Source: Shinisaurus crocodilurus
Lineage: Eukaryota; Chordata; Lepidosauria; Squamata; Shinisauridae
Reading direction: 5' to 3'
NCBI GenBank assembly: GCA_021292165.1
Contig: CM037881.1
Span: 4,774,001 to 4,838,000, forward strand
Length of the DNA: 64,000 bases
Below, piece after piece: positions 1-28,560 of this stretch. Position 1 is the first letter of the stretch, and each line of letters begins with the position of its first letter. Position numbers and translations under genes: made by a program. The notes under the pieces are model-generated. The model was not told the origin of the DNA and did not search any database. It was given only the letters and a program-made list of their open reading frames with translations.

Positions 1-148
1 AATGATTACTATCTTATCACATCACATCAATTCATCCTCATTTATTTTGGTGTCCAGTTGCGTCCTTCTTACATTTAAGAACACAGCTACATCTGTTTGC
101 ATGACTAAAGGAGATTCTTCTTAATTTTGAAGAAAATGGAATACATAC

Positions 149-3200: not shown

Positions 3201-6200
3201 CATTGCTTGGTGCAAAGAATGTGTAGGAGCCGCGTCCTTCGATCTCTTCTCTCAGTTTTGACAAATCAGAGTATTGTTGAGTGCTGGTGGCTCCCACAAT
3301 GCCCAAAGTACCGTAGACATGATCTATGGGAGCAACTGAAAAAGAAACAGCACACTGTATAGTCTGCTTACTTATCCTATCTTTTAAAATTGCTGGCATT
3401 TCATCCAGTTGAAAATTATGAATGGCATTTGTTGAACTACGTACTGCTTGTTTTAAGTGCCCTCCAATTTAGCATTTGATAAACTTTGCAGCAGTATACA
3501 AACTATGGAGCTAAAAAGATGTCCAAAGGGAAGGAATCCTTCACTTCAGCTTGGTTGGGAGACTGTGCATTTTCTCTAAGGAGGCTATGGAAACTGAGGT
3601 GCTATTAGCTGATTCACATTTGACAGACAGGCCTGTGGCTCACGCTGGCTCAGCTTGTCTGAGCGTGGAAAGCTAAGCAGGGTCAGGCCTGGTTATTACT
3701 TGGATGGGAGACCCCTCCTCTAGTTTCCTGCACTGAGCAGGGGGTTGGACTCGATGGCCTTGGACTGTAGGCCCCTTCCAACTCTATGATCTATGGATCT
3801 ATATGAGTGGGTCTACTCAGGGGTACTAAACATGTACTTCTGTACAGTTTCCCATCAGTTCTTCATCTTATACATTACACCACTTACATGAATAGAGTGT
3901 GCTCATGTCCTTTAAAAAAAAGGAAAGGAAAAGAAGAGAAGTAGCTGGTTTTAACATGAGAAGTAGCTAGTTCCTTAAGGTGATGTTCCCTAACATTAAA
4001 ACCCCCCAAATATATTTCCTCTCCTCCCGGCAAGTCCCTTGCTTTGGAACAAAAGCAGAGAACAGGCTGCATGTGTTAACTTGGACATGTAGGTCAATGA
4101 TGACACTACCTGCAGGGCATCCGCGCTCGCCTTCCATCCTCATGTAGCCAGGGCAGCATTCATATAAGACAGTTCTGCAGAAAAGCAACATAAAATATCA
4201 TTTTATTTCCCCAATTATTGTCTTCTTTTTGTTGCTATTTCCATTTGTTATCAACATATACACAAAACAGCTTACAAGAATTATAAATGTACAATAAAAC
4301 AGAATAAAAGAACAATAAAAGCAGACAGTTTTAAAAGCCTATAGTCAAATTAAAAGCAGTTAACTACAATTGGGAGACTGAAGTCAAATACTAAAAGCAA
4401 GCTGAAATAAAAAGGTATTCAGCAATTGCCCAAAGACTAAAAGAGAAGGGGTTCTGGATCTCCACAGATAATGAGATCAATCATGGTGCCACTACGGAAA
4501 AGCCTGTCCCAGGTCCCCTGCCTGTCTATTTGCATGTAAAGATGGGTCCAAGAATGCTGATCTTAACTGGTAGGCAGGATCATGTGGGAGTAGATGGTCC
4601 CAAAGTTAACCTGGCTCCCAGACTTTTAGGGCTCTAAAGGATAGAACCACTACACTAAACTGAGCCTAGAACAAATAGGTAAGCAATGCAGATCTTGTAA
4701 GATTAGGGTGGTATGATCCAACCAGCTGGTGGCCACATTTTGGACCAACTCATGTTTCTGGACCATCTTTAAAGGCAGCCTCAGACAAGATGGAGTTACT
4801 GGTGGTGCTCCTAGTATTTGTGGTGAGTCTTCTACCTAAAATAGTGGCCATCTTTACATCTCCAGATCCTTATTTATTATAGGCTCAAAGCACCTGTGAG
4901 CTTCATTCTTTCTGCTCATATGCAAGGGACCAGCAACCAGGATTAATTACTTGGATTGTGGTGTTCATTCTCCTTCTCCCTTGAGTTGCAGATTGTACAT
5001 TTAATCTAGTAGCAAGAATAAATGCCTAGGGAATTTATGTATAGGTGGGATATAGAATGAATGAATGAATGAATGAAGGGATTGGATGTGATGAAGCCCA
5101 GATAACTGGTTCTTACTCATAAAAGATATATTTTCCATCTATAATTAAGACATTTATGAGTTGATCAGTATAATCTATCACACACAACTAGCACTTGTCT
5201 CTTGGGTTATGTCAATTCTGGTTGTGATGGTTGCATTCAACTTCAAGGGGAGAAGAATTCTCAGGCTACAGTTGTACTCTCCCTGTATGAGGATAAGTTA
5301 TCAGTGTTATAAGCTATATACATGTGACTGAGCGTGAACAACTAGTTTATGTCTCTATTAGTAGAATTAGGGGACATAGTAAAGCTGGTTTGCTCTTTGC
5401 GCACAGAGAAACACATACCTGGAATCAGATTTTAGGGATGGATTAATCTATCTGTTTCACTTTCTATAACATTTGCATTTTTTCAAGTGCAAGTCCGTGC
5501 CATCCCATTTCTGCACAAGTTTGAAAATTCTCTTTTTTAAAGCATGAACAAAAAAGTGTACACATTATATACCGTATGTATTTTCCCTTAAAATATGCAA
5601 TTTTTTGCAAGCACTTTCCCCAAATATATGCTTTTTTGTATGCAATTTTCCTAATGTATGCATTTAAAAAAAAAAAATATCGGGGGGGTAGAACTACATT
5701 GCAAAATTCAGAGGGGCTCAAAAACCAAAGGATAGGTACATTCTGGTTTGTGTATTAGTTTGGAAAGTGCAAATTAGATCAGTTCGTATTAAAATGCAAA
5801 CCAAATGAATTTTGCCGTCCACTGGAATCCATTGCTTGTTATATAGAATAGGTAAAGAAGAGCAACCTGCCTGGCTGAGGAAGGACTAAGAATTCCTAGC
5901 ATGTACAAGCGCATTGAGAAGGATAAGATGGGCACCTTCTGAATCAGGAATGTGAAGAGTCTGGCCAAACTGGCAAGGCAGTAGCCATAGCGAGAGAAAA
6001 ATGCAGTCCCCTAGCCCACCTAAAAGGCAGGCCACTTGGGCGCTGGGTCTTTCCAAAGGGCACGTGGATGCAACAGAAAACCTTTTGGACATAGCTACTG
6101 TGCTATTGGCTTACCTCCCTAAAGCTGATAGAATAACTGGTGGTCTAGAGCAGTGTTGCCCAACCTTGGGTCCCCAGATGTTTTTGGCCTCCAACTCCCA

Positions 6201-9200
6201 GCATGCCCCAGCCAGCGTAGCTGGCTGGGGCATGCTGGAAGTTGTAGGCCAAAAATATTTGGGGACCCAAGGTTGGGCAACACTGCTCTAGAGAAATGAG
6301 TAGACATTTTATTTCCATTTCTATGTCCTAAGAAAATTTGCCTTTTGACAAGAAGGGCTGTGGTCAAGCTCTTACAGTGTTGAATCCAGTTACGGGGGTT
6401 TGGGGGTGGAGAAAGGCAGAATTGTAAGCCGCTCTGCTTTTCACTCCCTTTCTTCATCATATCCAGTAAAAGAAACAAAATCAGGTTAACACAAATTTAA
6501 TACAGATGACGAGCCATAAAAGTTGCCAGTGTGTAATGGCTACAGCAGCTAAAATGTTCTTCGAGTGTATTTTAAGATGATCATGTTCCTTTAAACACAT
6601 AGCATACTTCCTCTGGAAGACTTGAGGGATTCAGGTCTAGCCAGCTTTTGGCTTTGAATATGCAAAGCCCTCACAGTTCAGTGCAAGCAGAAAACCAATG
6701 CATTGCATACATGTGAAGTGCGGGGGCTGTTTTGGGTGAAGGACTGGTTCCAAGAGGTGGCTGGAATCCACAGCCTTTTGCAAGCATCCATGGTCAAATC
6801 TTGGCCCTTAATATATTTCTGCTTGAACCAGTATGCTTCCCATATATGTGCACAAGTATAACCCCCGCCTGACACATCTGAGCCTTTTGAAACACTAGTT
6901 GAAAAAGGTTCTGAAGCAAAGCAGCTTACTAACAGCTCAGCCATCTCACATATCTATCTCCCCCTGTAAAAGGAGAGGTGTTTAGAGGAATTAAAGCTTA
7001 ATCCTTTTGGGTCATAAGCACTCTCATCCTGCTCTCCTGCAAAAGAAGGCACACACTGGAGAAAAGACAGCAGAATACTCTTCTCTCGGTCTTGATCATT
7101 TGCTCCAAACTCCACCCATGTATGGGAGAGGGGCTTGGAAGGGGCCTATAAGGCCATCGAGTCCAACCCCCTGCTCACATATCACTGAGACTCTTGTGGT
7201 TTTATGGATTGTGTATGTGGAGTTGTTGTTTTTTTTCAGGTGACAAATTTGGCAGCCGCATAAGAATCCTATGACTAGCTTCAGGTTTCCTCAGGTGCAA
7301 ACAGTGCTCTGCTGCTGCAAGGAGAGAGACCTGTGTTTCAACTGGGCAAGACAGCAGGTGTCTTTTCCCCAAGGAGGTGAGGCCTAATTTGATGGCTGAA
7401 ATTAAAGGGCTGAGAATAATACTCTGTGCTAAAAAAATAATGATTCAGAATGATATACCCACATTCCATTCTCAAAAAAGTTTGCTTCTGTCATCTCTAC
7501 ACAAATGACATATATTTGAGTATTGCTCTTTGTTTACCTTGCTTTTGTAAGGTATGGAACTACTGAAGACCCCTAAGAAATGCAAGCCTACTCTCAGTCA
7601 TTTATGCTGGCTCAGCTTGTCTGAGCGTGGAAAGCTAAGCAGGGTCAGGCCTGGCTATTACTTGGATGGGAGACCCCTCCTCTAGTTTCCTGCACTGAGC
7701 AGGGGGTTGGACTCGATAGCCTTGTAGGCTCCTTCCAACTCTATGATCTATGAAATCTATGAAATCTATGAAAACGACTAATGTTCTGAGGATTCTGAAT
7801 GTCCAATACAAACCTTAGGGCTCATGTACATAACTATCAGCCTAGATGGGCATTATAAGTAGTTCAAACAAAGGCACCTTCCCCCTGTATATACTGTCTT
7901 CCCCCCAGAGCACCATGATCTATAAAGATGCAGTCCATAATAGCAGTCCTCTGCACAGACAGACAACCCCTTGTCTCCACTGTACAGGCAGAGGCTGTAG
8001 ACCCCCCCCCCCCAGCAAATCCCAGGCACACCTGAATCCAGTTACCAGACAGTTCATAGGCCACGCAACCACAGTGTCCACACTACCTTGTTCATGGTCA
8101 GGAGGTTTTGTAATTGACCTCTAGTACCAGATTCTGAGTTACGCAATGGTGGTAGAGGGTCAGGAGGAATTCACTGGGAATTTGCTAGCTTTGCACTAAA
8201 AAAAACACCCCACATTCTGAGTAATCTGGGTTAAAAGTAAGTTGTTGAAACGTACTTTAAATGTACTAAGATGTGTCTGTATATTACTAATGAATGTACT
8301 AGCAAAAAGAGAGGTAGGCTATCCATCTTCTTCAATACTCTGTAGAAGTAGTGGCCAACCGTTTTGGCAAGGGTGCCACAAGTCAAGTTCAAACTGCGGG
8401 GCCATGTCAGTCTAGTGCAGGCGGTACAACATAGGCAGCCCTTCCGTGTCTTGGTATAGTTTTGCCTCTAGCTTACTGAGCCACCAAGCAGGCATTTAGC
8501 ACAGGCCTTCACTCTATGCCGGAGCCAGGCACACATCCAGATGGTGCCACAAACTCTTGCTGGCTATGCCACTTGGGGAACCTGTGCGTGGCACAGGTTG
8601 GCCACTCAGGCTGAGTAGTCACGAAAGGCACAGGACTTATTTATTTTTATTTATTATTAATATTTATTTATCGCCCATCTGGCCAGCAACCGGCCACCCT
8701 GGGCGATGTACACAGAATAAAATACACAAATGCAATAAAACACATTAAAACAATATAAAAATTTTAAAATCTTAACCCACCCCATATTCCCGCCTGAACA
8801 ACCAGGTTTTTAATGAGCGACGGAAGCTCATCAGAGAGGGGGCATGGCGGAGGTCACTCGGGAGAGAGTTCCACAGTACGGGGGCCGCCACAGAAAAGGC
8901 CCTCTTCCTCGTCCCCACCAGTCTAGCTGCTCTGGCTGAGGGGACAAGGAGAAGGCCATCCGTGGCAGATCTTGTTGAGCGGCCCACTTGGTGTTGCTGG
9001 AGACGCTCCTTGAGATAAACTGGACCAGAGCCGTATAGGGTTTTAAAGGTCAAAACCAACACCTTGAATTCGGCTCGGCAAGCAACTGGTAGCCAGTGCA
9101 AATCCTTCAGCACTGGCGTGATGTGGTCCCGCCGGCGGCTGCCTTTAACCAGGCGAGCCGCCGCGTTCTGTACCAGCTGCAGCTTCCGAACCGTCTTCAA

Positions 9201-11792
9201 GGGTAACCCCACGTAGAGCGCATTACAGTAGTCTAGGCGAGAGGAGACCAAGGCATGAACCACTGATGGGAGCAGGTGATTAGGTGATTAGACTTACGCT
9301 TTCTTTCCGCAGATGGCTCCCTGGTACCAGTTCCTGCATGTGCTGAAGTACTTCTTCTTGGTCCCCATAACTTGCTGGAGGGCACAGACATTTGGGCTGG
9401 GAGCGGGGAGGAAAAAGGGAAATATAAAAAGTCTGTTGTAGTTCTAATGTTTAAAATTTGACAGACGCTTCATAAACAGCACAGCTTTGCAAATGCCAGA
9501 ACCAGGAGTCTATTTCCTACCTAGTCGTTTATTAAAGTTCATGGAACTCCATACAAATAAAAGTCAAGCTACTTGGACAGACAAGGCTTGGAAGATTTCT
9601 CCTGCTGAGAAATGAGCAGGAGACTCCCTTCGGGATTTGAGGGTAACCACATTTGCTAGCTCTAGTCGCAAATGATCACTGACTTGGTCCTTCTTCCCAG
9701 AGCAGAAATTCATTGTAGCCTGCTTGGATTTCTTTCACCTTCCAACTTTTTCCTAAGTTTAGCTCAATTTCTGCCTCACTCACACTTGAATGGCTAAGGC
9801 TGGAGACAGACCATAGTGCAGTGTTCTCCAACATGGGTCCCCAGATGTTTTTGGCCTACAACTCCCAGCATGCCCCAGCCAGCATAGCTGGCTGGGGCAT
9901 GCTGGGAGTTGTAGGTCAAAAACATCTGGGGACCCAAGGTTGAAGAACACTGCCATAGTGTTTTGTTTTGTAATAGCATAAGATCCATTGCTGCCTGCAG
10001 CAGGCGAGTTCATCACACTATGCGTTTTGTAAGCTTTTGTAGTGCTTCAAAAGCCTGCAAACTCTTTTTGACCACATACAATAGTGAAATGAAAGAAACG
10101 AGTGTATATCTGCAACAGGCAACAATGGCTGGGTTCACACATGACAACCCAAATTCAAGATTGACTGTGGGTTATCGTTGAACCATGGGTTGTTGTTGAA
10201 ATGTGGGTTGCTGAGTTGTATGAACGAACCCACAAACAACCCACAGTTCACAACCCAACAACAAGCCATGGGTTCCCTTCATGGGTTGCTCATGGTTAAC
10301 AAACCATGGTTTGTTAGTATGGCTGGGTTCACACAACGGAACAACCTACGATTCAACAACAATCCACCACGATTCAACAATACAGAGGCGTAGCGTGGGG
10401 GGTGCAGGGGGGGCCGGCCGCACCGGGCGCAACATCTGGGGGGGCGCACTCGCAGCTCTCTGCCCCAGCTCTTCCTCCTCCTGCTCCCCCCCCCCAGAGG
10501 CGGCTGCCCTTGAGAAAGGGGCGGATCAGCCGCTGCCCCCCCTCGCTGCTGCCGCCGCCGCCGCCACCGCCGCGCCTGCCGGGTCGTGCGCCTCGGAGAG
10601 CGCGCGGGCGGGGCGGGGCGGGAGGCGAGGAAGGAGGCGCCGGCCGGTGCGTCGCGGCCGGGCAGGCGGAGGGCAGCCGCGCGCGGCGCGTGGGCCATGG
10701 AGCGCTGGAAGGGGCGCGTGGCGCTGGTGACCGGCGCCTCGGTGGGCATCGGGGCGGCCGTGGCCCGCGCCCTGGTGACCCCGCCCACGCCAATTATGGG
10801 TATCCTTCCTGGGGGCAAGAGGGGGCCGTTCACGGGCAAGGCAGCAGCAGTGCTGCCCCTCTGCATCTCCCCACCACCCAGGGCTGCCCCATTACCTCTG
10901 GTGAGAGAGTACATCTCGCTGACTGCCTGAGTGGAGAGCTGGCGGAGGGGAGCCCCACTCAGCCCCCCCACTTCGCCCTGGAGAGCCCCACGTAGAGTGC
11001 TGGGACGGCTCACAGTGGTGTTGGAGATCACCAGTCCATCCACGCCTAGCTGGGAAAAGGGAGCCGTTGCTACAGTGAGCGTCACAGCCTGGGCTCTGCC
11101 TTCCCACTGTGGCCCCCAAAAACCCACAAGGTAGAACCGCCCCACCCAAGCCCAGGTAAAGTCACCGTTCTAGGGCAAGACAGGCACAGCCAAGCCCGCC
11201 AGGAACTGAGGTGGCCGTGGGGGTGGGGGTGTCACTATAGCAAGGGCGAGGATGCTGCTGCACGACATCTTCATCCCTCACCACAGGCAATGCTGGCGAG
11301 GGCTGGGGGTTTCAATCCAACATCTGGGGGCCCTGGCAGGATATGGGATGCTTTCCCACCCCAACCCGCAGCACCTCACACACGACACTGGCGATGTCCT
11401 GCTTGTCTTGGGCTGTGAGGTCCGGTGCAATCTTCACCAGCACAGCCGGCTTGCGCTCGGCCGCCAGGGCATCCCTCTCAGCTAGCACCTGCGCTGCGGC
11501 ATGAAGGTGGTGGGGCTGCGCCCGGAGCGTGGACAAGGATTCAGGTAGGTGGAGAGCGCGGAGAAGAAGAGGGCAGAAGAAAGAAGGGAGCGAGAGGAGA
11601 GAGAGAGAGAGAGAGAAAGGGGAGGGAGGAGGAAAAGGAGAGATAGACGAAAGAGGGAAGGAAGGAGGAGGAAAAAGAGAGAGAGAGAGAGAGAGAGGGG
11701 GAGGAGGAAAAGAGAGAGAGAAAGAAGGGAAGGAAGGAAGGAGAAGGGGAGGAGGAAGAGGAGAGAAAGGAAAAGAAAGAGAAGGGAGAAGG

Positions 11793-11828
<36 letters not shown>

Positions 11829-14800
11829 AAAAGAGAGAGAAAGAAAGGGAAGGAAGGAAGGAGAAGGGGGAGGGAGGAAGAGAGAAAGAAAGGAAAAGAA
11901 AAGAGGAAGGGAGGAAAAGAGAGAGAGAATGAAGGGAAAGAGGAGGAAGATGGGGAATGAGAAAGGGGAAAGAAAGTTGGGGAGACGAGAAAAGGAAGGA
12001 TGGAAGGCAGATAGAAAGAAAGAGAAAGGGAGGGAGGCAGGAAAGGAAGATGAGGAAGGAGAGGAAAAAGAGTGACGGGGAAAAGAGAAGAGAAAGAAGG
12101 AAGGAAGGAAGAAGAAAGAGAAAGAGAGAGAGAAAAAGGAAGGACAAAGCGGAGAACAGCAAAGGATCGCGCTCCCTTGGCCCTGCACCTCCCTCCCCGG
12201 GGTCCCGGTTCTTGCGCCGCGATGAATTCCTGTTTGGCTTCCGCCGTCTGCCCGGGGGGACAGGGAGGCAAGAAGAAGAGTCATTTAAACCCGAAAGGAG
12301 AGGAGAAGGAAATGGGCTAGAAAAGAAGGGAAAGGGGCGTGTGGGGAAATGGGATCGGGGGACGATGAATGAAGAAATGGAGGAGGCAGGAAGTTGAGTT
12401 GAACTTGTTGAAGGGACAGGTGGAAAGGGAGGGGCCCGAGCAGGACAGAGGCAGCGCAGGGTGTGTCTTCTTCTTTTCTCCTCCTCCTCCTCCTCCTCTC
12501 CTCCTCTCCTCCTCCTCCCTCCTCTCCTCCTCTTGGGGAGTCTCCCTTATTGCTTCTCCCTCTTCTAGACCTCTGTGTGACCTCCCCGAATTTAAATTAA
12601 TCTGTATATTATATACAGATGATATCTTGCACTTCTATTAAAGAATTACAATTAGAGGTACAGGATTGAGGAAGTTGGCTCCATCTAGCCCAGTCTTGGA
12701 TCATCTCCAGGGTATGGTTCCATTTTGATGTTTAGTTTTTGTTCTTGATATTTTTTGTCATTTACGATGGTTGTGAGACGACATATAATAGCATGGCCCA
12801 TGCTAGGTTACTACATTTGTAGATTTGTATTCATAGACCTGCTGAAAATGTGGAGAATGTGTAATGCATGTTCGCACTCAATAAAGTGTTTGAAAATAAA
12901 CTTGTATTTAGATGCATTTTACTTTAATTACATCAGTATTTTCATAACAAACAATATATGTGCTTAGGGGGTAAGGGTTTCTTTAACTAATCTAGTGGAA
13001 GAGACTTGAGTGCTAAAATCCACGGGTTAGGGGGCGCAAATTACTTGCCTTGCCCCGGGTGCTGACAACCCACGCTACGCCACTGCAACAATAACCCACA
13101 CTCAACCTTGAGTATGGGTTGTTGTGTTGCGTGAACCCAGCCAATGCCTCCGTGATTCCACCTTCAGCTCTTGTACAAACTATTGTTTGCCTTCAGCCAA
13201 AATGTCAACTGCCTCCAGCAACTCTGCTCTGAGGCAGTTCTTGGCGTCATTCTGCTCACTTGGCGTTGTTCTGTTCACTTGGGGAGTGGGGCCCTCCTGC
13301 TTAGCAGCCTGGGAGAGAAGGGAACTTCTGAGACCTGGTTTTGCTTTCACAAACAGAGGCTCCTCTCCGATTATGCCTCTCTACGATCTTCATTATTAGA
13401 AATGGCAACCATTTTTTTCTTGGCACAAGTGGAATGAGTTTTCACCCTTGTCTGGTGTTATCTTGCTCACAGCTGTATCTTACAGATGGCGTGTGTGTGG
13501 TAATGGGAGAAAAGGAAACATTTCCCCCCCCCCCACTCTGCCTCCCCACAGGAAACTCTCATCTTCTGTATTTCGATATGTTATTTTGATCGCCACTGTT
13601 TGGAATACTACAAGAGCACCGAAGTAAATAACCCCATAACTAAATGAGAAAAAGGGGAGAAACAATGCAACCTTTTGGCTAAAAAATATCAAACCGTTCT
13701 CTTGATTTGAGAAGAAGTCTCTTCAACGGTTAAATCCATTCCACAATATGGGCACAACGATCCAGTGAGAAATTTTCTTGAGCGAGCCTCACTGCAATGT
13801 GCCATACTCTTGTGTGGCTTCCATTCATTACAGTTCAGGAGAACCTGCTGCTGCGCTGAAGTGCTTTGCTTTTCTGTTATTGCAACCATCAACCAATAGT
13901 ATTGTGGAACATTTTAGATGCGAATGCATTTAATTTTAAGCATTATTTACTTTTACAAAATCTTTGATCATTAACATTTCATCATTTCACACACACACAC
14001 ACACACACACACTTCATTTATACTGAATTGGATTATTCAAGCATACCATTTTTACCTGGGCAGAATATCTCACAAGCATTTGATCTGCATTGTTAACCCA
14101 CGTGGTTATTACTACATGGATATAGCTTACTCAGTGTCCATAAATGAGCGTTCAGGGTTTTTAAAAAAAATGATCTAGAAGTTGTTCATTTGAAATGCAA
14201 AACAAACAAACAAACAAACAAAAAGATTTCAAAAGCATATTATATGAAATATGCTTATGAAATCTTTATATTAAATGAAATAAATGAAATTATAGCATGT
14301 TTGAGCACATAACAGATTTATGGGGACAACTAATTTAGTCTGGACTACGCCAGCGGGATAACTGAATGAGCATCTCATTGTGAATCTGAAATTGAGTTTT
14401 TATTTAATTTCTAAAGAAAAAGGTGCCAGGGCTCACATTTGCGTGGAAACACTGTCCCTTAATCTGGCAGCCCCCTCACCCGGTCTGTGATGGATGTGCG
14501 CTCTTTCTTACCCCTTGGTAAGGGAAATGTACTCTGAACCTGCCTGGGGGCACATGTTTCTCTTCATATGTCCTAAGGTTGAACACTAACATTGAAACCA
14601 GATGCCTAAACTGAGATTTGAGGAGCCCTGGCACAAGCTAAGCACTCTTGAAATACCCTCAAGGATGTGAAAAGGAAAACATGTTTTATATTTATTTCCT
14701 GATGTTATTTGGTTTTTAGCAGTCTGCTATTTTATCCAATTATTAAACTTCAACCTTCTTGTACATTCCCCCCCCCCCCTTAAAAGCGTTGTTTTAGGAA

Positions 14801-15076
14801 CACAGCAAATATGTTTGCAAGAGGACGCACAATGCCCTCATCACTGGAACATCACCCTACTTTCGCTACACAATAGCTGTAGTTATGGAAGCAAGTTCCA
14901 TTTCAAGCACCAGTTATGATGAATATTATGGAGATAAAATGTGCTTACCCTTGATCACGTGCCCTGATCCGGCTGTGGCTCAAAATCTTGTCATAGTGAG
15001 CAGTAGTAGCAGATTCTGCAGGATGAAAAGCTGACAGAAAACAAGTGGTGACTGTGGCAACCAAAAGGAGCTCCAT
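149..15076 (-). CDS. POSTN: Periostin, 5' portion of gene (exons 1-6 of a longer gene)
   Basis: Secreted matricellular protein that binds collagen, fibronectin and integrins. Six exons on the minus strand join in phase (128+99+65+158+165+147 = 762 nt, 254 codons) with GT/AG borders. In order the protein has a signal peptide (about residues 1-23), a cysteine-rich EMI domain (about 42-97, with [24 protein letters not shown] and GCPA), FAS1 domain 1 (about 98-230, with [18 protein letters not shown] and FFAPSNEAW) and the start of FAS1 domain 2 ([14 protein letters not shown]). Order, phases and motifs follow known vertebrate periostins; TGFBI is the nearest alternative but lacks the periostin-type N-terminus [17 protein letters not shown]. 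Downstream exons (rest of FAS1-2, FAS1-3/4, C-terminal cassettes) lie past the left edge. All introns are loaded with transposons. No frameshift or stop is seen in the exons. Confidence 0.95.
296..780. other. POSTN intron 5, left part: nothing recognised
   Basis: AT-rich intronic sequence between exon 6 and a retroelement-like tail. I see no coding homology or repeat signature I can name. Confidence 0.4.
780..1012 (+). mobile_element. LINE/SINE 3' tail, degenerate
   Basis: It contains a 'gtaaaccaccttgaaat...taggcagtatattaatgttttaaataaata' type 3' end (about 955-1010), the form seen at the 3' termini of several vertebrate LINE and SINE families. The upstream extent is unclear. Antisense to POSTN. 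Confidence 0.45.
1241..1405 (-). CDS. POSTN: POSTN exon 5: FAS1 domain 1 continued
   Basis: A 165-nt, 55-codon exon in phase 0/0, with acceptor CCCCCCAG and donor GTAAGT. It encodes [28 protein letters not shown] and INHYPNG, which match periostin FAS1-1 closely. No stop or indel. Confidence 0.95.
1614..1748. mobile_element. Palindromic hAT MITE, copy 1
   Basis: A 135-bp near-perfect inverted repeat with ends CAGTGTTCTCC/GGAGAACACTG around a 3-nt centre (GTA). The 8-bp flanks are CTCTAGCC (1606-1613) and CTCTATCC (1749-1756), 7/8 identical. This is a non-autonomous hAT-type insertion in POSTN intron 4. Each arm carries CTACAACTCCCAGCATGC. Confidence 0.9.
2203..2520. mobile_element. Possible hAT/Charlie-like fragment
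   Basis: Begins CAGAGGTGGGGAACCTTTTT and continues with a 'caagggccaaattccc' motif, a form common at hAT-Charlie-type ends. I could not find the matching right terminus or a TSD, so the extent is a guess. Confidence 0.35.
2521..3177. other. POSTN intron 4, right part: nothing recognised
   Basis: AT-rich intronic sequence leading to exon 4. No repeat or coding signature recognised. Confidence 0.4.
3178..3335 (-). CDS. POSTN: POSTN exon 4: start of FAS1 domain 1
   Basis: A 158-nt exon with acceptor TTTCTTTTTCAG. It encodes [28 protein letters not shown] and [16 protein letters not shown]. Two donor positions are possible (after GAT C or after GAT CGT). The phase-0 start of exon 5 requires CGT|GTAACT, giving a final Arg where mammals usually have Ser. 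FAS1-1 begins here. Confidence 0.93.
3644..3801 (+). mobile_element. 5S rRNA-derived SINE with CR1 tail, copy 1
   Basis: The first about 70 bp match the internal part of 5S rRNA (GTCTGAGCGTGGAAAGCTAAG, then CAGGGTCAGGCCTGGTTATT and ACTTGGATGGGAGACC). They include the A box, intermediate element and C box of the type-1 pol III promoter. The second half is a CR1 3' end (agcagggggttggactcgat ... ccttccaactctatgat) with an imperfect tandem ATCTATG-type tail. This is the SINE3 plan, with mobilisation presumably by CR1 machinery. The 5S part is truncated at its 5' end. Confidence 0.8.
4110..4174 (-). CDS. POSTN: POSTN exon 3: second half of EMI domain
   Basis: A 65-nt exon between acceptor TTTTCTGCAG and donor GTAGTG. 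It encodes [21 protein letters not shown], containing the CC pair and final cysteine of the EMI domain. It starts in phase 2 and ends in phase 1, matching its neighbours. It is short and would be easy to miss. Confidence 0.93.
4470..4800 (-). mobile_element. Degenerate L2-like LINE fragment
   Basis: On the minus strand this resembles the C-terminal coding end of an L2-like LINE: 'ttttggaccaactcatgtttctgg' and 'agcaatgcagatcttgtaagattagggtggtatgatcc' correspond to the segment seen more clearly at 8772-9263. No ORF remains. AT-rich sequence at 4230-4400 may be its 3' UTR. Confidence 0.45.
5051..5078. repeat. (GAAT)n microsatellite
   Basis: Tandem tetranucleotide gaatgaatgaatgaatgaa in POSTN intron 2, close to a LINE-like 'ataggtgggatatagaatgaatg' tail. 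Confidence 0.85.
5090..6142. other. POSTN intron 2: nothing recognised
   Basis: AT-rich sequence with ORF noise only. No coding homology seen. Confidence 0.4.
6151..6285. mobile_element. Palindromic hAT MITE, copy 2
   Basis: 135-bp inverted repeat with ends CAGTGTTGCCC/GGGCAACACTG. Flanks are GTCTAGAG (6143-6150) and CTCTAGAG (6286-6293), 7/8 identical. Slightly diverged arms (CCTCCAACTCC in one, GGAAGTTG in the other). Confidence 0.88.
6294..7130. other. POSTN intron 2: nothing recognised
   Basis: No gene or named repeat recognised. Confidence 0.4.
7131..7182 (-). mobile_element. Short CR1 3' fragment
   Basis: Matches the minus-strand CR1 3' end 'ttggaaggggcctataaggccatcgagtccaaccccctgctc'. 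Only about 50 bp remain. Confidence 0.7.
7606..7772 (+). mobile_element. 5S rRNA-derived SINE with CR1 tail, copy 2
   Basis: Nearly identical to the element at 3644-3801: a 5S-like head with A box, intermediate element and C box, then a CR1 3' end and a tail of ATCTATGA repeats (about 7740-7772). The flanks differ from copy 1, so this is an independent insertion of the same family, not a local duplication. Confidence 0.8.
7773..8635. other. POSTN intron 2: nothing recognised
   Basis: Contains a C-homopolymer near 8004 and the segment 'agtggccaaccgttttggcaagggtgccacaagtcaa' (about 8350-8390), which recalls hAT termini but has no TSD I can find. Confidence 0.4.
8640..9285 (-). mobile_element. 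L2-like LINE, 3' end, sense to POSTN, abutting exon 2 donor
   Basis: The minus strand has an open 163-codon C-terminal LINE segment (9263-8772) with [43 protein letters not shown] and [14 protein letters not shown], motifs typical of the region downstream of RT in L2/CR1-group LINEs. The 3' UTR ends in 'ccagatgggcgataaataaatattaat...' (8640-8690). It is 5'-truncated; the truncation point lies near 9285, about 12 nt past the POSTN exon 2 donor. Same strand as POSTN. Confidence 0.85.
9298..9396 (-). CDS. POSTN: POSTN exon 2: first half of EMI domain
   Basis: A 99-nt exon. The acceptor CTCCCAG precedes 9396 and the donor GTAAGT follows 9298. It completes the split glycine codon of exon 1 and encodes [19 protein letters not shown] and [10 protein letters not shown]. 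The cysteines are those expected of an EMI domain. The exon ends in phase 2. The 5' end of an L2 fragment sits only about 12 nt beyond the donor. Confidence 0.95.
9397..9810. other. POSTN intron 1, 3' end
   Basis: Contains the exon 2 acceptor and branch region. Nothing else recognised. Confidence 0.4.
9819..9952. mobile_element. Palindromic hAT MITE, copy 3
   Basis: 134-bp inverted repeat with ends CAGTGTTCTCC/GAAGAACACTG. Perfect 8-bp TSD CCATAGTG at 9811-9818 and 9953-9960. Centre ATA. Confidence 0.93.
10124..10316. mobile_element. MITE-like inverted-repeat element (GGCTGGGTTCACACA family), copy 1
   Basis: Begins TGGCTGGGTTCACACATGAC and is rich in 'aacccac'/'gtgggttg' inverted motifs. 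A second copy starts directly after it at about 10319. Superfamily not determined; no convincing TSD. Confidence 0.55.
10450..10696 (+). promoter_or_regulatory. Captured CpG island / GC-box promoter (DHRS11-derived)
   Basis: Extremely CpG-rich stretch ending at a Kozak-like tgggccATGG. It contains a GC-box run GGGCGGGGCGGGGCGGG at 10606-10622 and a CCG-triplet run near 10550-10570. No TATA box. Its position directly before the DHRS11-like start codon argues that it is the source gene's promoter and 5' UTR. Whether it is active here is unknown. Confidence 0.65.
10697..10777 (+). pseudogene. DHRS11: DHRS11 exon 1 fragment, N-terminal 27 codons (captured)
   Basis: From the ATG at 10697 the frame reads [13 protein letters not shown], then [14 protein letters not shown]. 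This matches the N-terminus of the SDR enzyme DHRS11, including the Rossmann dinucleotide motif TGxxxGxG (TGASVGIG). Homology stops sharply at codon 27, where the DHODH fragment begins. Read on, the frame stays open through antisense DHODH sequence to a stop at 10928-10930, giving a possible 77-residue chimeric peptide. The rest of the exon is found at about 11497-11544. Confidence 0.85.
10777..10808 (-). pseudogene. DHODH: DHODH exon fragment c (captured, truncated)
   Basis: The minus strand reads [10 protein letters not shown], the FMN-phosphate-binding segment of class 2 dihydroorotate dehydrogenase, preceded by a good acceptor (CTTGCCCCCAG). The exon is cut at the junction with DHRS11 at about 10777. 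Confidence 0.82.
10896..11049 (-). pseudogene. DHODH: DHODH exon fragment b (captured, complete exon)
   Basis: 154-nt exon with acceptor CCCTTTTCCCAG and donor GTAATG. It encodes [27 protein letters not shown] and [14 protein letters not shown], diagnostic of DHODH (the NTTxSRP and GGLSG motifs lie around FMN/substrate). Phase joins exon c across an 87-bp intron (10809-10895) and exon a across a 325-bp intron. No internal stop. Confidence 0.88.
11375..11488 (-). pseudogene. DHODH: DHODH exon fragment a (captured, complete exon)
   Basis: 114-nt exon, 38 codons: [36 protein letters not shown]. This matches the DHODH segment with the [14 protein letters not shown]-contact strand. It ends TGT GAG before a weak GTGCTG donor, and the next exon continues in frame. 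Together a, b and c cover about 100 residues of the C-terminal half of the enzyme, so no functional DHODH is encoded. Confidence 0.87.
11497..11544 (+). pseudogene. DHRS11: DHRS11 exon 1, second half (captured)
   Basis: Plus strand CGGCATGAAGGTGGTGGGG... followed by a splice donor CAG|GTAGGT. Allowing one extra G, it reads GMKVVG then CARSVDK, matching the segment that follows ALV in DHRS11 exon 1. The DHODH piece therefore lies inside DHRS11 exon 1. One or two single-base insertions break the frame. Confidence 0.72.
11556..12150 (+). repeat. Polypurine (GGAA/GAGA) tract
   Basis: About 600 bp almost entirely A and G on the plus strand, built of GGAAGG, GAGAGA and AAGAAAG blocks. It is inside the Pack-hAT, directly after the DHRS11 exon 1 donor, so it may be captured intron 1. 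Long homopurine mirror-type tracts can form triplex DNA. The long ORFs here (Ser/Leu/Phe-rich or Arg/Glu-rich) are composition artefacts. Confidence 0.9.
12590..13085. mobile_element. AT-rich 3' end of the Pack-hAT
   Basis: AT-rich sequence in sharp contrast to the GC-rich cargo, ending in 'cttgccttgccccgggtgctgacaacccacgctacgccactg', the inverted counterpart of the left TIR. Includes an AATAAAG at about 12879. Presumably the original transposon body. Confidence 0.7.
13143..14948. other. POSTN intron 1, 5' part
   Basis: No gene or named transposon recognised. Contains (CA)n at 13988-14012, (AAAC)n at 14202-14221, and C runs near 13526 and 14769. Confidence 0.5.
13988..14012. repeat. (CA)n microsatellite
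   Basis: About 12 CA units in POSTN intron 1. Confidence 0.9.
14949..15076 (-). CDS. POSTN: POSTN exon 1: signal peptide and N-terminus
   Basis: The ATG is at 15076-15074 and the exon ends before the donor GTAAGC at 14948. It encodes 42 residues plus two bases. The start [20 protein letters not shown] is a typical signal peptide with a hydrophobic core. It is followed by [17 protein letters not shown], the conserved mature periostin N-terminus. The signal peptide differs strongly from mammalian periostin, as signal peptides commonly do. The start is supported by the TATA box about 85 bp upstream and by the lack of another suitable ATG. Confidence 0.95.
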
Positions 15077-15160
15077 CCTTCTCTCTCTCTCCTCTGTTGC
15101 TCCTGTCCTCCTGACTAGTCTGAAAAGAGAACTGGGGAAAAGGCTGCAGAGAGCTCAAAG

Positions 15161-15168
15161 TTTATATA
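15161..15168 (-). promoter_or_regulatory. POSTN: POSTN TATA box
   Basis: On the minus strand the sequence reads TATATAAA, about 85 nt upstream of the POSTN ATG. A TSS 25-30 nt downstream would fall near 15130-15136, giving a 5' UTR of roughly 55-60 nt. The 5' UTR includes a CT-rich stretch (15077-15102). The TSS is inferred. Confidence 0.75.
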
Positions 15169-15169
15169 C

Positions 15170-15799
15170 ATGCTACAGTGCGGTGGGAGGGGGAAACGGA
15201 TCAGCCTGAGACTTCGAACAACCACCCTCCCACAAACAACAGGAACATCAGTCAGTTTTGAACCAGCCTTGCCAGAATGTGGAACACAACGGCACTCAAC
15301 TTGGGAGCTCCCCCACTTTCTTCACGTCCATAAGAATATATTATGCATATAATGTATCATGTTTCTAAGGGGTTTTTACGACCCTCCCCTTCAGGGAGTA
15401 TTTAAAGCCGTCAGAGTAAGTGTATTGTTAACTACTGCAAGACATTCATGTTTCAACAGAACAGAAACGGAACAATTCTCTATAGCAGTACCCTTAGGAT
15501 TCAATTAGACTTTATGATGCTAACCCCGTCCTTTGCCTGGAAAGGCACTTGGCCTAGTATTCATAAAAGGAGGCAAACCTGTGTCTAGATGCTCTCATGG
15601 GGGGTTCACCGGAGGGAATACTTCTAAACACACACACACACAATCCCCTGCACACAGAAAGCTACATGTCAGTCTATTCCCTCACATGCTTGCTTGTTTT
15701 CTATGAGCAGAAATGTCTTTTGAATGGAGAAGCATTCAACCAAGCATACAAGCCTCCACCTGCAGTCGGAAGTGGTACCATCCAGAAAAAGGCTGACCT
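15170..15799. other. POSTN proximal 5' flank
   Basis: Single-copy-looking DNA between the TATA box and the tandem duplication, holding the proximal promoter. The minus strand has a TGTTTGTGGG motif near 15233-15242 (FOX/RUNX-like), unproven. A short (CA)n lies at 15629-15642. Confidence 0.4.
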
Positions 15800-15815
15800 C
15801 TTCATCTGCTGTTTG

Positions 15816-16598
15816 CAGGGATGTTGAAGAGTCCTTGGTCTCGAGTCATGAGTCGAGTCACAAGTCGTTGGACCCGAGTCTCGAGTCCGAGTCCGAGTCC
15901 TTGGTCCAAAATGGTGACTCACGAGTCACGAGTCCTGAGTCACTCCCAAAACTGACTCCACGAGTCCCTATTAAAATCAATGGGGCTTCCCCCCAACAAA
16001 ATAAGGCTACTTCAGATGTGTGGCTTAAATAAATTCTAGGCACAAGTGTGCCTTTTTATTTCAAAACTCTGCCACTGATTTTGGCAAGAACAGACCAGGC
16101 AGACAAACCCAAAATAACCAGGCAGGCAGAGGAGGCAGGGAACCCCAAAGCAGGCAGGCAGAGGCCTTTGTCTTGGACAATTCAACTGTTGAACTGGTCA
16201 AGAAGAGACCAGGCAGGCAGAGGAGGCTGGGAACCCCAAACAGGCAGGCAGAGGCAGCCAAACCCAAAATGTCTGACCCTAACCCAAACCCCCCACAACA
16301 ACACATCAATCAAAATAAATCTCAACACATCGTTGGGGCTGCGCTCCTGGTAGCTGTCCATAGTGGCCGAGCAGCGGCGCACCTCGCTTCCATGCGCTCT
16401 TCACCGGTGATCGCGCTCCTTCTGGCACAGCCAGAAGACTCGTCAACAGCCCAGGGATGTTGACGAGTCCTTGGTCTCGAGTCCCGAGTCGAGTCTCGAG
16501 TCCCATTAAAAATATTGGGACTCGAGTCCGAGTCGAGTCAGAGGGGGGACTCAGTCCGACTCACGAGTCGAGTCCTCGAGTCCGAGTCCCCATCCTTG
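15816..16598 (+). mobile_element. GAGTC-rich hAT-like element E1
   Basis: 783 bp. Ends are CAGGGATG and CATCCTTG (consensus CATCCCTG), an inverted repeat. Both ends hold dense GAGTC/CGAGTC arrays. The middle has GGCAGGCAGAGG repeats and no transposase. The flanks repeat CTTCATCTGCTGTTTG (15800-15815 and 16599-16614), 16 bp and not 8. It starts the 4.65-kb duplication unit and lies about 680 bp upstream of the POSTN TSS. Confidence 0.85.
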
Positions 16599-16614
16599 CT
16601 TCATCTGCTGTTTG

Positions 16615-16995
16615 TGAGAACGATGCCTTGGTCTCTGCCCCCAGCAAGGCATACCACACTACCTGTTCGTAAGCCGTTTTCAGTACTCCCATGAAGTACT
16701 GATTACACCCTCAGGAAAACTGTAAATTTAAAATTATAATACATTCAGCAGGAATCAAAGTAAAGCTTCTCCAGTACCATTTCAGGCTGCGGGGTGTGTG
16801 TGTGTCAAATTCCCGCATGTAGAAAGTCCGCAAGGAGAGGCTTCAGCCGAGCCTTCTCCCTGACATGTTATTTTTCTGTTTGCGGGGAAAGCCATTGCAG
16901 AAGGGAGCATTCGTTGTGTGACTCCCTCCTCCCGCTTCAGCCTGAAATGGTACAGCCTAGGAAAAAGCTTTTCCACATGATTTTGTTCAACAGAG
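16615..16995. other. Unit A: unassigned sequence
   Basis: No repeat or gene recognised. Short (GT)n at about 16795-16803. Confidence 0.4.
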
Positions 16996-17003
16996 CCCTA
17001 ATG

Positions 17004-17138
17004 CAGTGTTTCTCAACCTTGGGTCCCCAGATGTTTTTGGCCTACAACTCCCAGCATGCCCCAGCCAGCGTAGCTGGCTGGGGCATGCTGGGAGTTGTAG
17101 GCCAAAAACATCTGGGGACCCAAGGTTGAGAAACACTG
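17004..17138. mobile_element. Palindromic hAT MITE, copy 4
   Basis: 135-bp inverted repeat with ends CAGTGTTTCTC/GAGAAACACTG. Perfect TSD CCCTAATG at 16996-17003 and 17139-17146. Confidence 0.93.
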
Positions 17139-17146
17139 CCCTAATG

Positions 17147-17973
17147 CAATTATTCGTGAGTCTATTTCAATCTGGGCAATAGCTGCGGTTGGATCCACAA
17201 TCTGCCTTCCACAAGATGGGTCTTTCCATGAGAGGAAGGGCTCCGCTCGCAGAAGGCCCCCTCACCCGATTTTGGGGGATCCCCTCCCCCACTCTACAGC
17301 TCACCCCATGGTCTCCTGATCCTCTGTGTAGCATTTCAGGGGGCTAGAGGCGCTGCTGTTTGAAGGAGGGGTGGGGGGGGAGCCCACTTGTAGTGTAAAT
17401 CTGGATCCGACCCTAAGAAATGATCTAAGACCTGTAGATCAGGAATGAATCTTCACAATATCCTGGTGGTCCTGCCAAAAAGGAGATTGTGAGATCAATT
17501 GCACCAAGGGCCATTGAGAGAGTGAGCGGCAGAACCAGCATTCAGTTACAGGTGTTTATGGCCTTCATGTCAGGGGAGAGGTTTCCGGTTCACGTGGGTA
17601 TTTCTGTCATTATATGTGTGAGATTACTGAGCCCCCTCAAAATCATGAGACCTATCTGCACATGTTAACTTATGTGTATAGATGCAAATTTAGAAATAAA
17701 TATTATAATTTAAATAGTAGAAGTACAGAACATCTCGCCATAGTAGGGAATTCTGTGACCACCAGGTGACCCGTGTGCCTTGCTCAGTCTGCTGTCCAGG
17801 GCAACAGTTGTTCCTGGTCAACTTCAAGGCCAGCTCTTCCTTCTGATGGTTCTTTATCTCTGTACCTGACTTGAACTTCGAATAGAGGACATCTTCAAAA
17901 AAGAGGACAGTCCTCTGGCAGCCCTTCAAATACAGGGCTGTCCTCTGTAGAAGAGGGCACAGGGCCACCGTAT
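17147..17973. other. Unit A: unassigned sequence
   Basis: No coding homology or named repeat seen. A 96-codon minus ORF at 17690-17980 has no recognisable features. Confidence 0.4.
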
Positions 17974-18438
17974 GAATCATAGAATCATAGAATCATAGAA
18001 AAGTAGAGTTGGAAGGGGCCTACAAGGCCATCGAGTCCAACCCCCTGCTCAATGCAGGAATCCAGGTCAAAGCATCTCTGACAGATGTCTGTCCAGCCGC
18101 ACCTTGAATGCCTCCAGACTGGGAGAGCCCACCACCTCCCTAGGTAGTTGATTCCATTGTCTTATTGCTCTGACAGTCAGGAAATTTTTCCTGATGTTCA
18201 GGTGGAATCTAGGTTCCTGTCACTTGAGCCCATTATTCCGTGTCCTGCAAACTGGGATGATCCTGGCCCTCCTCTGTGTGACATCCCTTCAAATACTGGA
18301 AGAGTGCGATCATATCTCCCCTCAGTCTCCTCTTCTGAAGGCTAAACATGCCCAGCTCTCTCAGTCTCTCCTCATAGGGCCTTGTTTCCAGTCCCTTTAT
18401 CATCCTTGTTGCCCTCCTCTGAACCCTCTCCAGTTTGT
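17974..18438 (-). mobile_element. CR1 LINE 3' end (unit A)
   Basis: Minus-strand CR1 with 3' UTR (ttggaaggggcctacaaggc on the plus strand) and tail of ATTCTATG repeats (17974-17999). The coding end reads [20 protein letters not shown] (degenerate). 5'-truncated. Confidence 0.9.
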
Positions 18439-19348
18439 TAAAGCAAGCAGGTGAAGATGGCAGACATGAGCATTTGGTTCAGATCTTAAGGCAGAGGTGG
18501 AAATGGTGGGAGGCAACAAGGCCCACACCCATGCCACCTCTAGAGTGCCAAGACGCTATGCCATAATGGAGGATACGCAGCACCAACTGGGAGCTCCTGT
18601 TGGTCAACAGTGCCCCCACCCCAGGGCAGAGGCCTCGGCAGGTTCCCAGCTATGTCAACCACTGACACCAGATCTGCACATAAAAGCTGATCCAGCTAAA
18701 GTTGACTGTGACTAAGTCCTATTGAAAAGAATGTTACTTTAGGTTAGTAATGACTACCTTCTTCCATTGTACCCCCCTCCCCCGCCAACCATGGGACTTA
18801 CTTATGACTAACTTCAGCTGAATTGGGCTTAAAGTGAGAAGATGGCAATTTGCTAATTGCCTGAATGGTGTCATGCCTAATTTGGCCCAGTTAGAGATGA
18901 GACAGAAATTAAGAATTAATTGGATAGGTCAGTGAATTCTCTCCTGTAAATGAAAAGCAAATTTAACCTTGTTGCCATTCACACATTTTGTTTTCATGCA
19001 TTCAGACATTTCAGACCGTCCTGAGGAGTTTCTGAACAGTGCAGATCTGTGATAATTTCAGCTTAATTACAATGAAAAAAGGAAAAGCTTGCATTTAAAT
19101 GCACATTTGTCATTAAACTAGATGAGGTATAAAGAAAAAAGAAGTTTAAATGTACAAACAAAACCAAAAATACACATGGAAACTGAGTGCCATGTGCCTT
19201 ATCCCTAAAAAAACAAAACAAAAACTAGCTCTCAACTCATAAATCTGTCAGTTATACTTTCTCCAGCATTCAGATTTTTAAAAAAGCACAAGTTATTTCT
19301 TTCCTGAGTATGAAGCATGTGTGTGTATATAAATCTGCCAATTTGAGG
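18439..19348. other. Unit A: unassigned sequence
   Basis: No gene or named repeat recognised. Confidence 0.4.
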
Positions 19349-19595
19349 TTAACATTTATTTTTTATTTATTTTTATTTATTTATTATATTTATACCCCGC
19401 CTTTTTTCCTTCAAGGAACCCAAGGCGGCTTACATTATCCTCCTCTCCATTTTACCCTCACAACAACCCTGTGAGGTAGGTTAGGCTGAGAGTCAGTGAC
19501 TGGCCCAAAGTCATCCAGTGAGTTTCATGGCCGAGCGGGGACTAGAACCTGGATCTCCTGAGTCCCAGTCCAACATCCTAACCACTACGCCACAT
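19349..19595 (-). mobile_element. tRNA-derived MIR-like SINE (unit A)
   Basis: On the minus strand: tRNA-like head with box A (TGGCGTAGTGG) and box B-like GGTTCTAGTCC, a core (CATGAAACTCACTGGATGAC, CAGTCACTGACTCTCAGCC), and a tail 'ggcggggtataaatataataaataaat'. The same family as at 28561-28807. Confidence 0.82.
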
Positions 19596-19685
19596 CTGAT
19601 GAGGTGGACAGTGTCCACAAAAGCTTATGCCAGAATAAATTTGTTAATCTTTAAGGTGCCACACAAGACCCTTGTCATGTAACCT
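19596..19685 (+). mobile_element. Retroelement tail with hammerhead-ribozyme-like core (unit A)
   Basis: CTGATGA (19596-19602), a 6-bp helix GTGGAC/GTCCAC (19604-19609 / 19613-19618), AAAA in place of GAAA (19619-19622), a GC-TTAT-GC mini stem III (19623-19630) and C. This is the order of a minimal hammerhead with a 2-bp stem III, as described from Penelope-like elements. Continues 'aataaatttgttaatctttaaggtgccacacaagac', a common vertebrate retroelement 3' end. The G-to-A change in the GAAA core should abolish cleavage. Stem I is not evident. Confidence 0.5.
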
Positions 19686-19946
19686 TAGCAATTAAGCAAA
19701 AGGCGGGGGGGGGGGGACAAAATTTGTGGTTGAGATGTGTGGATATCTGCAGGCCAAGACACTATTTCACATAATAAACAGCCTATATTTGTACAGAGGG
19801 CAAATTGCTTTCAATAGGAGCTGGGTTGGGGCCTTTATATGTTTACTGTTTACCTCCCTGTGAACTGTCAATATTGATAACCTCGTGGGACTGTTGAGAG
19901 GGAAAGTGAAAAAGCATAAAGAATTTGTCACACCTCCATATAGTAT

Positions 19947-20224
19947 GGAGTTATGGAACTCTCTCCCCGGTGACCTCCGCGGCCATGCCCCTTCCTTGAT
20001 TAGCTTCTGCCGAGCATTAAAAACGTGGCTTTTCAGGAGGGAATATGGGATAGGTTAGGATTTTTAAAGTTTTGTACTGTTTTTAATTGTGTTTTATTCT
20101 GTGTGTGTGTGTGTGTGTGTGTGTTTCCCCTCGTCTTGTGTTTTATTGGACTGCACATCGCTCAGAGTGGCCGGATGTCTGGCCAGATGGGCGATTCATA
20201 AATATAATAAATAAATAAATATAG
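19947..20224 (+). mobile_element. L2-like LINE 3' end (unit A)
   Basis: Coding end WNSLPGDL...[15 protein letters not shown] (degenerate), 3' UTR with (GT)n, and a tail 'cagatgggcgattcataaatataataaataaata'. Same lineage as 8640-9285 and 58486-59494. Confidence 0.85.
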
Positions 20225-20468
20225 TAGGGAGACTCAAGCAATCCCCTCATGTGTGGAAAGCAAGTGTTAGGGGCTCGGGGGGTTGCCCTGAGTGGTCTCC
20301 TCGCTCCGCCCGATGTCAGCACACGTGTCAGCCGTCCTTCTGCAGCTGAAGGAGGCACAGCCGTGTGGAGGGGCGGAGTCCGGAGTCCGGACACTGGCTT
20401 ACACAAGTAGGGGCTGGGGAATTCTCCAATGCATACTTTGGTATGTACGCAGCCCGCCCGCCCCTTCG

Positions 20469-21252
20469 CAGGGATGTTGAAGAGTCCTTGGTCTCGAGTC
20501 ACGAGTCGAGTCACGAGTCTTTGGACCCGAGTCTCCGAGTCCGAGTCCGAGTCCTTGGTCCAAAATGGTGACTCACGAGTCACGAGTCCTGAGTCACTCC
20601 CAAAACTGACTCCACGAGTCCCTATTAAAATCAATGGGGCTTCCCCCCAACAAAATAAGGCTACTTCAGATGTGTGGCTTAAATAAATTCTAGGCACAAG
20701 TGTGCCTTTTTATTTCAAAACTCTGCCACTGATTTTGGCAAGAACAGACCAGGCAGACAAACCCAAAATAACCAGGCAGGCAGAGGAGGCAGGGAACCCC
20801 AAAGCAGGCAGGCAGAGGCCTTTGTCTTGGACAATTCAACTGTTGAACTGGTCAAGAAGAGACCAGGCAGGCAGAGGAGGCTGGGAACCCCAAACAGGCA
20901 GGCAGAGGCAGCCAAACCCAAAATGTCTGACCCTAACCCAAACCCCCCACAACAACACATCAATCAAAATAAATCTCAACACATCGTTGGGGCTGCGCTC
21001 CTGGTAGCTGTCCATAGTGGCCGAGCAGCGGCGCACCTCGCTTCCATGCGCTCTTCACCGGTGATCGCGCTCCTTCTGGCACAGCCAGAAGACTCGTCAA
21101 CAGCCCAGGGATGTTGACGAGTCCTTGGTCTCGAGTCCCGAGTCGAGTCTCGAGTCCCATTAAAAATATTGGGACTCGAGTCCGAGTCGAGTCAGAGGGG
21201 GGACTCAGTCCGACTCACGAGTCGAGTCCTCGAGTCCGAGTCCCCATCCTTG
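20469..21252 (+). mobile_element. GAGTC-rich hAT-like element E2 (recombinant)
   Basis: 784 bp. Left flank CCCCTTCG (as in E3); right flank CTTCATCTGCTGTTTG (as in E1). Internal variants switch from E3-type (extra C at about 20536) to E1-type (GGGGCTTCC at about 20640). It has no TSD of its own. This is the crossover product joining units A and B. Confidence 0.88.
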
Positions 21253-21657
21253 CTTCATCTGCTGTTTGTGAGAACGATGCCTTGGTCTCTGCCCCCAGCA
21301 AGGCATACCACACTACCTGTTCGTAAGCCGTTTTCAGTACTCCCATGAAGTACTGATTACACCCTCAGGAAAACTGTAAATTTAAAATTATAATACATTC
21401 AGCAGGAATCAAAGTAAAGCTTCTCCAGTACCATTTCAGGCTGCGGGGTGTGTGTGTGTCAAATTCCCGCATGTAGAAAGTCCGCAAGGAGAGGCTTCAG
21501 CCGAGCCTTCTCCCTGACATGTTATTTTTCTGTTTGCGGGGAAAGCCATTGCAGAAGGGAGCATTCGTTGTGTGACTCCCTCCTCCCGCTTCAGCCTGAA
21601 ATGGTACAGCCTAGGAAAAAGCTTTTCCACATGATTTTGTTCAACAGAGCCCTAATG

Positions 21658-21792
21658 CAGTGTTTCTCAACCTTGGGTCCCCAGATGTTTTTGGCCTACA
21701 ACTCCCAGCATGCCCCAGCCAGCGTAGCTGGCTGGGGCATGCTGGGAGTTGTAGGCCAAAAACATCTGGGGACCCAAGGTTGAGAAACACTG
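21658..21792. mobile_element. Palindromic hAT MITE, copy 5 (duplicate of copy 4)
   Basis: Same sequence and TSD (CCCTAATG) as copy 4 at +4654. Not an independent insertion. Confidence 0.93.
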
Positions 21793-25912: not shown

Positions 25913-25920
25913 CCCCTTCG

Positions 25921-27137: not shown

Positions 27138-27145
27138 CTGAAAAC

Positions 27146-27291: not shown

Positions 27292-27299
27292 CTGAAAAC

Positions 27300-28558: not shown

Positions 28559-28560
28559 TT

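Follow-up and report, generated by a model that had tools for sequence, protein, structure and literature searches.

The Locus

The window analysed here is a 64,000-nucleotide stretch of the Shinisaurus crocodilurus genome (assembly GCA_021292165.1, contig CM037881.1, positions 4,774,001 to 4,838,000 of the forward strand), and all coordinates below are positions within it. At 10383–13085, the window carries a 2,703-bp insertion with hAT-like ends, and between those ends are pieces of two host genes, DHRS11 and DHODH. An earlier note on this DNA, made from the letters alone, had proposed that a single hAT transposon captured both genes. The note had overlooked that the DHODH fragment is antisense to DHRS11 and splits its first exon, that the exon then resumes and ends in a splice donor, and that an older foldback repeat surrounds the insertion. 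The features are listed in Table 1.

The Insertion Site

The terminal inverted repeats (TIRs) of the insertion agree at 16 of 17 bases, and the 8-bp target site duplication (TSD) is perfect, just as the earlier note had it. Both are of the hAT kind. The TIRs of hAT transposons are short and begin with CAG, as these do, and an 8-bp TSD is that of the hAT superfamily. When the whole window was scanned for inverted 17-mers that match at 12/17 or better, stand 200–6000 bp apart and are flanked by identical 8-mers, 19 pairs were found, and two of these reached 16/17 or better. One is the present element; the other is a 17/17 pair at 17004/21792, whose ends lie in separate copies of a 4.65-kb tandem duplication.

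Both flanks of the insertion proved to be parts of a single older repeat. When the left flank is aligned with the reverse complement of the right, about 60 bases pair at a local score of 67; in 24,316 further comparisons between 65-base segments of the window, both strands included, the score never exceeded 29. The empty site was rebuilt by taking out the element and one copy of the TSD, and the resulting 320-base joined flanks fold into a hairpin across the insertion point at −84.2 kcal/mol. Thirty mononucleotide shuffles of the same sequence gave −33.5 ± 4.3 kcal/mol with a minimum of −42.6. Since the rejoined site folds as one hairpin across the joint, the flanks adjoined each other before the element inserted, and since they close there into one foldback repeat, both ends of the element belong to one insertion. 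No loss of host flank DNA is visible. The earlier note had allowed that its proposal would fail if the TIRs came from two different elements with the genes natively between them. Nothing was found in favor of that, and the identical TSD copies, the continuity of the foldback across the joint and the location of DHODH inside a DHRS11 exon refute it as far as it can be tested, so that its probability is negligible. The host repeat itself is a long foldback of about 300 bases, resembling a miniature inverted-repeat transposable element (MITE), with ends GGCTGGGTTCAC; blastn found no second copy of it in the window.

The Two Cargoes

The first 27 codons of DHRS11 exon 1 begin at the ATG at 10697, and the segment 10697–10783 matches PDB 1xg5 (named ARPG836 there, and which we take to be human DHRS11) with an E value of 4.3e-8. 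Read together with the remainder of the exon, through its two frameshifts, the exon gives 44 amino acids that match the same structure gap-free over 43 residues (E 1.6e-14) and are 85–90% identical to many vertebrate proteins named DHRS11. In a frameshift-tolerant scan with the native residues over both strands of the window, the remainder scores 59; the scan reaches at most 32 elsewhere in the window and at most 40 in 50 shuffles. The splice donor that follows is presumed to be the start of captured intron 1, which probably also includes the purine-rich tract downstream of it. Upstream of the ATG, there are 36 CpG in 236 bp, an observed/expected ratio of 0.91, where the median of 127 window bins is 0.33. 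By its composition, this stretch fits a putative captured 5′ flank or promoter, in line with the promoter capture that the earlier note had inferred.

Running in the opposite direction, the three DHODH exon pieces, once joined, give a gap-free match of 105 residues to PDB 1uum (presumably rat DHODH; E 2.3e-44). The first five of those residues are in or beyond an ambiguous junction, leaving 100 that are clearly DHODH, and the pieces contain no stop or frameshift. The middle exon is complete, and the two outer ones are truncated mid-exon; because of that truncation, the borders of the fragment must be DNA breakpoints and not splice events. Two GT...AG introns separate the pieces, and the DHRS11 exon likewise runs on into a donor and noncoding DNA. 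A retrocopy origin of the cargo is ruled out by the retained introns. The identification of DHRS11 and DHODH coding exons within the element is thus borne out by the matches to known structures, the protein motifs quoted for them are all present, and the retention of introns within one element upholds the proposal that the two host genes were captured at the DNA level.

Pfam searches in six frames of the element found only these two cargoes, and there are no known RNA families in 10000–13500. A third captured gene at about 12161–12400 was considered and rejected; the two open frames there have no PDB match.

A Gene Fragment Nested in an Exon

The DHRS11 exon halts after codon 27 (10777) and resumes at 11498, with the antisense DHODH fragment in between. 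The exon is uninterrupted in PDB 1xg5 and in all eight native DHRS11 proteins that were aligned, which represent seven species (a gecko, a lacertid lizard twice, a turtle, two birds, a frog and a caecilian). In the native proteins, one half runs straight into the other, with two residues (Q followed by H, Q or R) at the split point, and at most two codons (6 bp) of exon sequence are unaccounted for. Base 10777 fits both genes, a 1-bp microhomology as judged from native bases inferred from the proteins, and the right DHODH/DHRS11 junction is ambiguous over 11489–11497. Since DHODH interrupts an exon that is contiguous in the eight native proteins, this is not an ordinary gene neighborhood, and the element is a compound capture. 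Native adjacency of the two genes was the other outcome said beforehand to defeat the capture proposal, and the result goes the proposal's way as far as the comparison could be run.

Two other ways of arriving at such a nested arrangement were weighed. An assembly artefact joining unrelated reads is suggested by the GC-rich and repeat-rich character of the stretch, by a near-identical tandem duplication in the same window and by two frameshifts within 50 bp. However, an exact TSD with a restored foldback at the edges, and an exon that continues from its point of interruption with no more than 6 bp unaccounted for, are hard to get by random misjoining, and we regard an artefact as very improbable. 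The other is that a rearranged pseudogene, a DHRS11 fragment with DHODH already inserted, existed beforehand and was taken whole by the transposon ends through end bypass. That would need just one capture step and agrees with all the junctions seen, but it requires an unseen chimeric locus, and we consider it unlikely.

Table 1. Features of the insertion and its flanks, in window coordinates.
Feature	Position	Strand	Detail
Older host repeat (foldback, MITE-like), left part	10126–10382	+	pairs with right flank
TSD, left copy	10375–10382	.	CAACAATA, exact 8 bp
Left TIR	10383–10399	+	CAGAGGCGTAGCGTGGG, 16/17 match
CpG-rich DNA upstream of DHRS11 ATG	10461–10696	+	GC 0.82, 36 CpG
DHRS11 exon 1, first part	10697–10777	+	codons 1–27 from ATG at 10697
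Captured DHODH genomic fragment	10777–11490	-	~714 bp, antisense to DHRS11
DHODH exon piece C	10777–10808	-	3′ end cut off
DHODH intron	10809–10895	-	87 bp, GT...AG
DHODH exon B	10896–11049	-	complete between two splice sites, translation ends MYSLTR
DHODH intron	11050–11374	-	325 bp, GT...AG
DHODH exon piece A	11375–11488	-	38 residues, 5′ end cut off
DHRS11 exon 1, remainder	11498–11544	+	three frames = two +1 frameshifts
DHRS11 exon 1 splice donor	11545–11552	+	GTAGGTGG
Purine-rich repeat tract	11553–12160	+	
AT-rich right end	12581–13085	+	AATAAA at 12880, no transposase domain
Right TIR	13069–13085	-	reverse complement reads CAGTGGCGTAGCGTGGG, 16/17 match
TSD, right copy	13086–13093	.	CAACAATA, exact 8 bp
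Host foldback repeat, right part	13086–13146	+	pairs with left flank

Origin of the Cargo

The closest of 12 native DHODH proteins to the cargo is that of Varanus komodoensis, with 93 of 100 residues the same and 7 differences. The other 11 species differ from the cargo at 11–22 residues in 100. The cargo and Varanus DHODH are grouped with 88% ultrafast bootstrap, which is moderate support from a short alignment. Among the differences between the two, 61 (F) looks to be derived in Varanus, and 62 (Q) and 80 (A) look to be derived in the element. By this comparison, the cargo looks to have been captured within the host's own varanid-like lizard lineage.

Assignment and Proposed Mechanism

We conclude that the insertion is very probably a non-autonomous hAT-type element in which host DNA has taken the place of most of the interior, making it a compound Pack-hAT, whichever order the events took. 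Host-gene DNA lies between the TIRs of one element, which is the defining arrangement of a Pack-TIR or Pack-hAT, and the AT-rich right end is probably the transposon's own sequence. Three points weigh against this assignment. First, no transposase domain was found by Pfam in six frames of the element, and since there is no trace of one, the name hAT is drawn from the TIRs and the TSD; the lack is as expected of a non-autonomous copy. Second, hAT transposons prefer targets of consensus nTnnnnAn or nnnTAnnn, a bias that is not strictly defining, and by inspection, the TSD CAACAATA fits neither. Finally, the parent genes are represented by proteins of other species, and the captured borders, the microhomology and the presumed source of 11545–12580 are provisional.

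The compound could have been built by template-switch gap filling. A break in the transposon would have been repaired with the 5′ end of DHRS11 as the template; a further break, or a polymerase switch, in the GC-rich exon would have been bridged by copying DHODH. One repair event that involved two switches is also compatible with the structure. The nesting, with at most 6 bp of exon unaccounted for, is what a templated patch would leave if the break lay in DHRS11 DNA that had already been captured. In a survey of animal Pack-TIRs (Tan et al. 2021, PMC8277862), the breaks usually lie inside the transposon with little lost, the median gap being 4.6% of the transposon, and breakpoint microhomology at one or both ends is reported for 67.6% of elements, with lengths of 1–36 bp and a median of 2. 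We count the 1-bp microhomology at 10777 in favor of the mechanism because it is within that range.

The copying may have taken place where the element now stands, after a plain hAT had inserted, or the composite may have formed elsewhere and the copy at 10383–13085 transposed in, perhaps as one of several, like the multicopy frog element Pack-hAT-N8_XT. The two differ in the order of events, and formation elsewhere is compatible with the insertion being a compound Pack-hAT. Filling in place is slightly favored in our analysis; we lean to it because most animal Pack-TIRs are thought to arise in that way, according to the same survey (PMC8277862). Against it, the survey has the parent within 15 kb in 56.9% of cases, whereas here blastn found neither of the parent genes in the rest of the 64 kb, of which 10.4 kb are to the left of the element, and the cargo is GC-rich like that of the multicopy cases.

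Those two observations also speak for formation elsewhere, GC-rich cargo being linked to multicopy Pack-TIRs in the survey (PMC8277862), as do the clean TSD with its empty site and the domain content of the surroundings. Pfam in six frames (E up to 0.01) over about 48 of the 61 kb outside the element (1–10382, 13086–20458 and 29800–59801, the rest being 20459–29799, most of it tandem duplication, and the final 4.2 kb) found no DHODH or short-chain-dehydrogenase domain. However, multicopy cases number just 4 (1.4%) in the survey (PMC8277862), and blastn found no second copy of the element in the window. Cargo-like proteins were also listed, 120 of 811 matches (from 7,999 scored candidates sharing the most words) and 120 of 171; among those listed, none stands out as a copy of the cargo in a transposon, where unlisted or unannotated copies would not show. 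All of those listed carry PF01180 (dihydroorotate dehydrogenase), and some are hypothetical or nameless, so that a transposon copy among them would not be told by its name. We would put the chance of formation elsewhere at somewhat short of even. The element ends have no exact match in viral_contigs and genome_contigs, as expected of collections from viruses, bacteria and archaea.

The likely outcome is a chimeric pseudogene of neutral effect. Neither enzyme can be made whole from it, as only fragments of DHRS11 and of DHODH are present. If the CpG-rich stretch were an active promoter, its transcript would cross DHODH in antisense before reaching the DHRS11 donor, and antisense and chimeric transcripts from Pack-TIRs are reported in the survey (PMC8277862). 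A more far-reaching idea is that of a mobile multicopy promoter–exon cassette, spreading a CpG-island promoter, an ATG exon and a splice donor with transcripts antisense through the three DHODH exons. If that were so, insertions would supply new first exons to neighboring genes and also yield antisense RNA against a host pyrimidine-synthesis gene, but we hold it to be quite improbable.

Other Features of the Window

The tandem duplication spans 15812–25913, and its period is about 4,654 bp. Over 5,450 bp, it aligns at 99.58% (14 mismatches, 6 gaps), with a partial third copy of 794 bp at 97.5%, and it is either very recent or an effect of assembly. A short palindromic element starting at or near CAGTGTTCTCCAACCTTGGGTCCCCAGATGTTTTTGGCC occurs in nine copies (1608, 6145, 9812, 16998, 21652, 35517, 41724, 52555 and 55131), one of them about 400 bp to the left of the Pack element. 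There is a second hAT-like candidate at 39357–40035 with 15/17 TIRs (CAGGGCCGGATTAAGAG) and an exact 8-bp TSD, TCGATGCC.

Several pieces of protein-coding sequence were also recognized. On the minus strand, Fasciclin-domain pieces at 3288–3178 (E 0.0018, below the curated cut-off) and 325–206 (E 1.3e-10) are probably exons of a host gene. Also on the minus strand are CNNM-family pieces in different frames at 39334–39146 and 38565–38326, matching Pfam PF25511 (below its cut-off) and PF01595. A Septin domain piece on the plus strand at 55277–55640 changes frame without an intron and is probably a processed pseudogene; it is followed by reverse-transcriptase pieces within 56714–57758.

Comparison with Known Systems

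Multi-gene cargo is common in plant Pack-MULE/Pack-TYPE elements, and Helitrons have neither TIRs nor TSDs. Like the present element, Pack-MULE/Pack-TYPE elements are reported to be non-autonomous transposons with coding fragments, in plant hosts as against a vertebrate here (PMC8903248). Turmoil-1 of C. elegans is reported to carry host gene fragments in its inverted repeats and likewise to have two protein-coding sequences (PMC2572040), and bat Helitrons are also reported as animal transposons with host gene fragments (PMC4778049).

The nearest relatives in kind are the Pack-TIRs of animals. The survey reports 370 of them in 100 animal genomes, 208 of which are hAT (Tan et al. 2021, PMC8277862), so the suggestion in the earlier note that captures of this sort by hAT elements in vertebrates are rarely reported is too strong and not supported. 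As described there, those elements share with ours one transposon's TIRs around host DNA, copying at the DNA level and junction microhomology; ours differs in drawing on two genes, with one inside the other in inverted orientation. Vertebrate hAT capture of a host gene 5′ end is exemplified by the frog Pack-hAT-N8_XT with the CAPSL 5′ UTR (untranslated region), which by the same survey has a cargo of 291 bp from one gene, present as three copies that differ in their TSDs, compared with at least 0.84 kb of recognizable cargo from two genes here. The survey listed an insert only where a single parent was uniquely best and the length ratio to that parent was 80–120%, which is a rule of detection and not a definition (PMC8277862). 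Because of the single-parent rule, it would not list the present element with its two source genes, and compound captures in general would go uncounted there.

Our literature search, with most subscription journals outside its coverage, found no report of this element and nothing combining DHODH, DHRS11 and a transposon, and the TIR letters, in one of four variants, occur in 4 papers, none of them about transposons by title. The capture of genes by hAT transposons in animals is already known, and a two-gene cargo with one gene inverted in the other's exon is a variant of it. The CpG-rich 5′ stretch and the donor bear on whether such a cargo acts as a portable first exon, and the nesting of two genes would separate repeated template switching from capture in one step. 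As a case seen at the level of single bases, the element suggests that two genes can be accommodated in one vertebrate hAT, the first serving as a patch where the second was broken.

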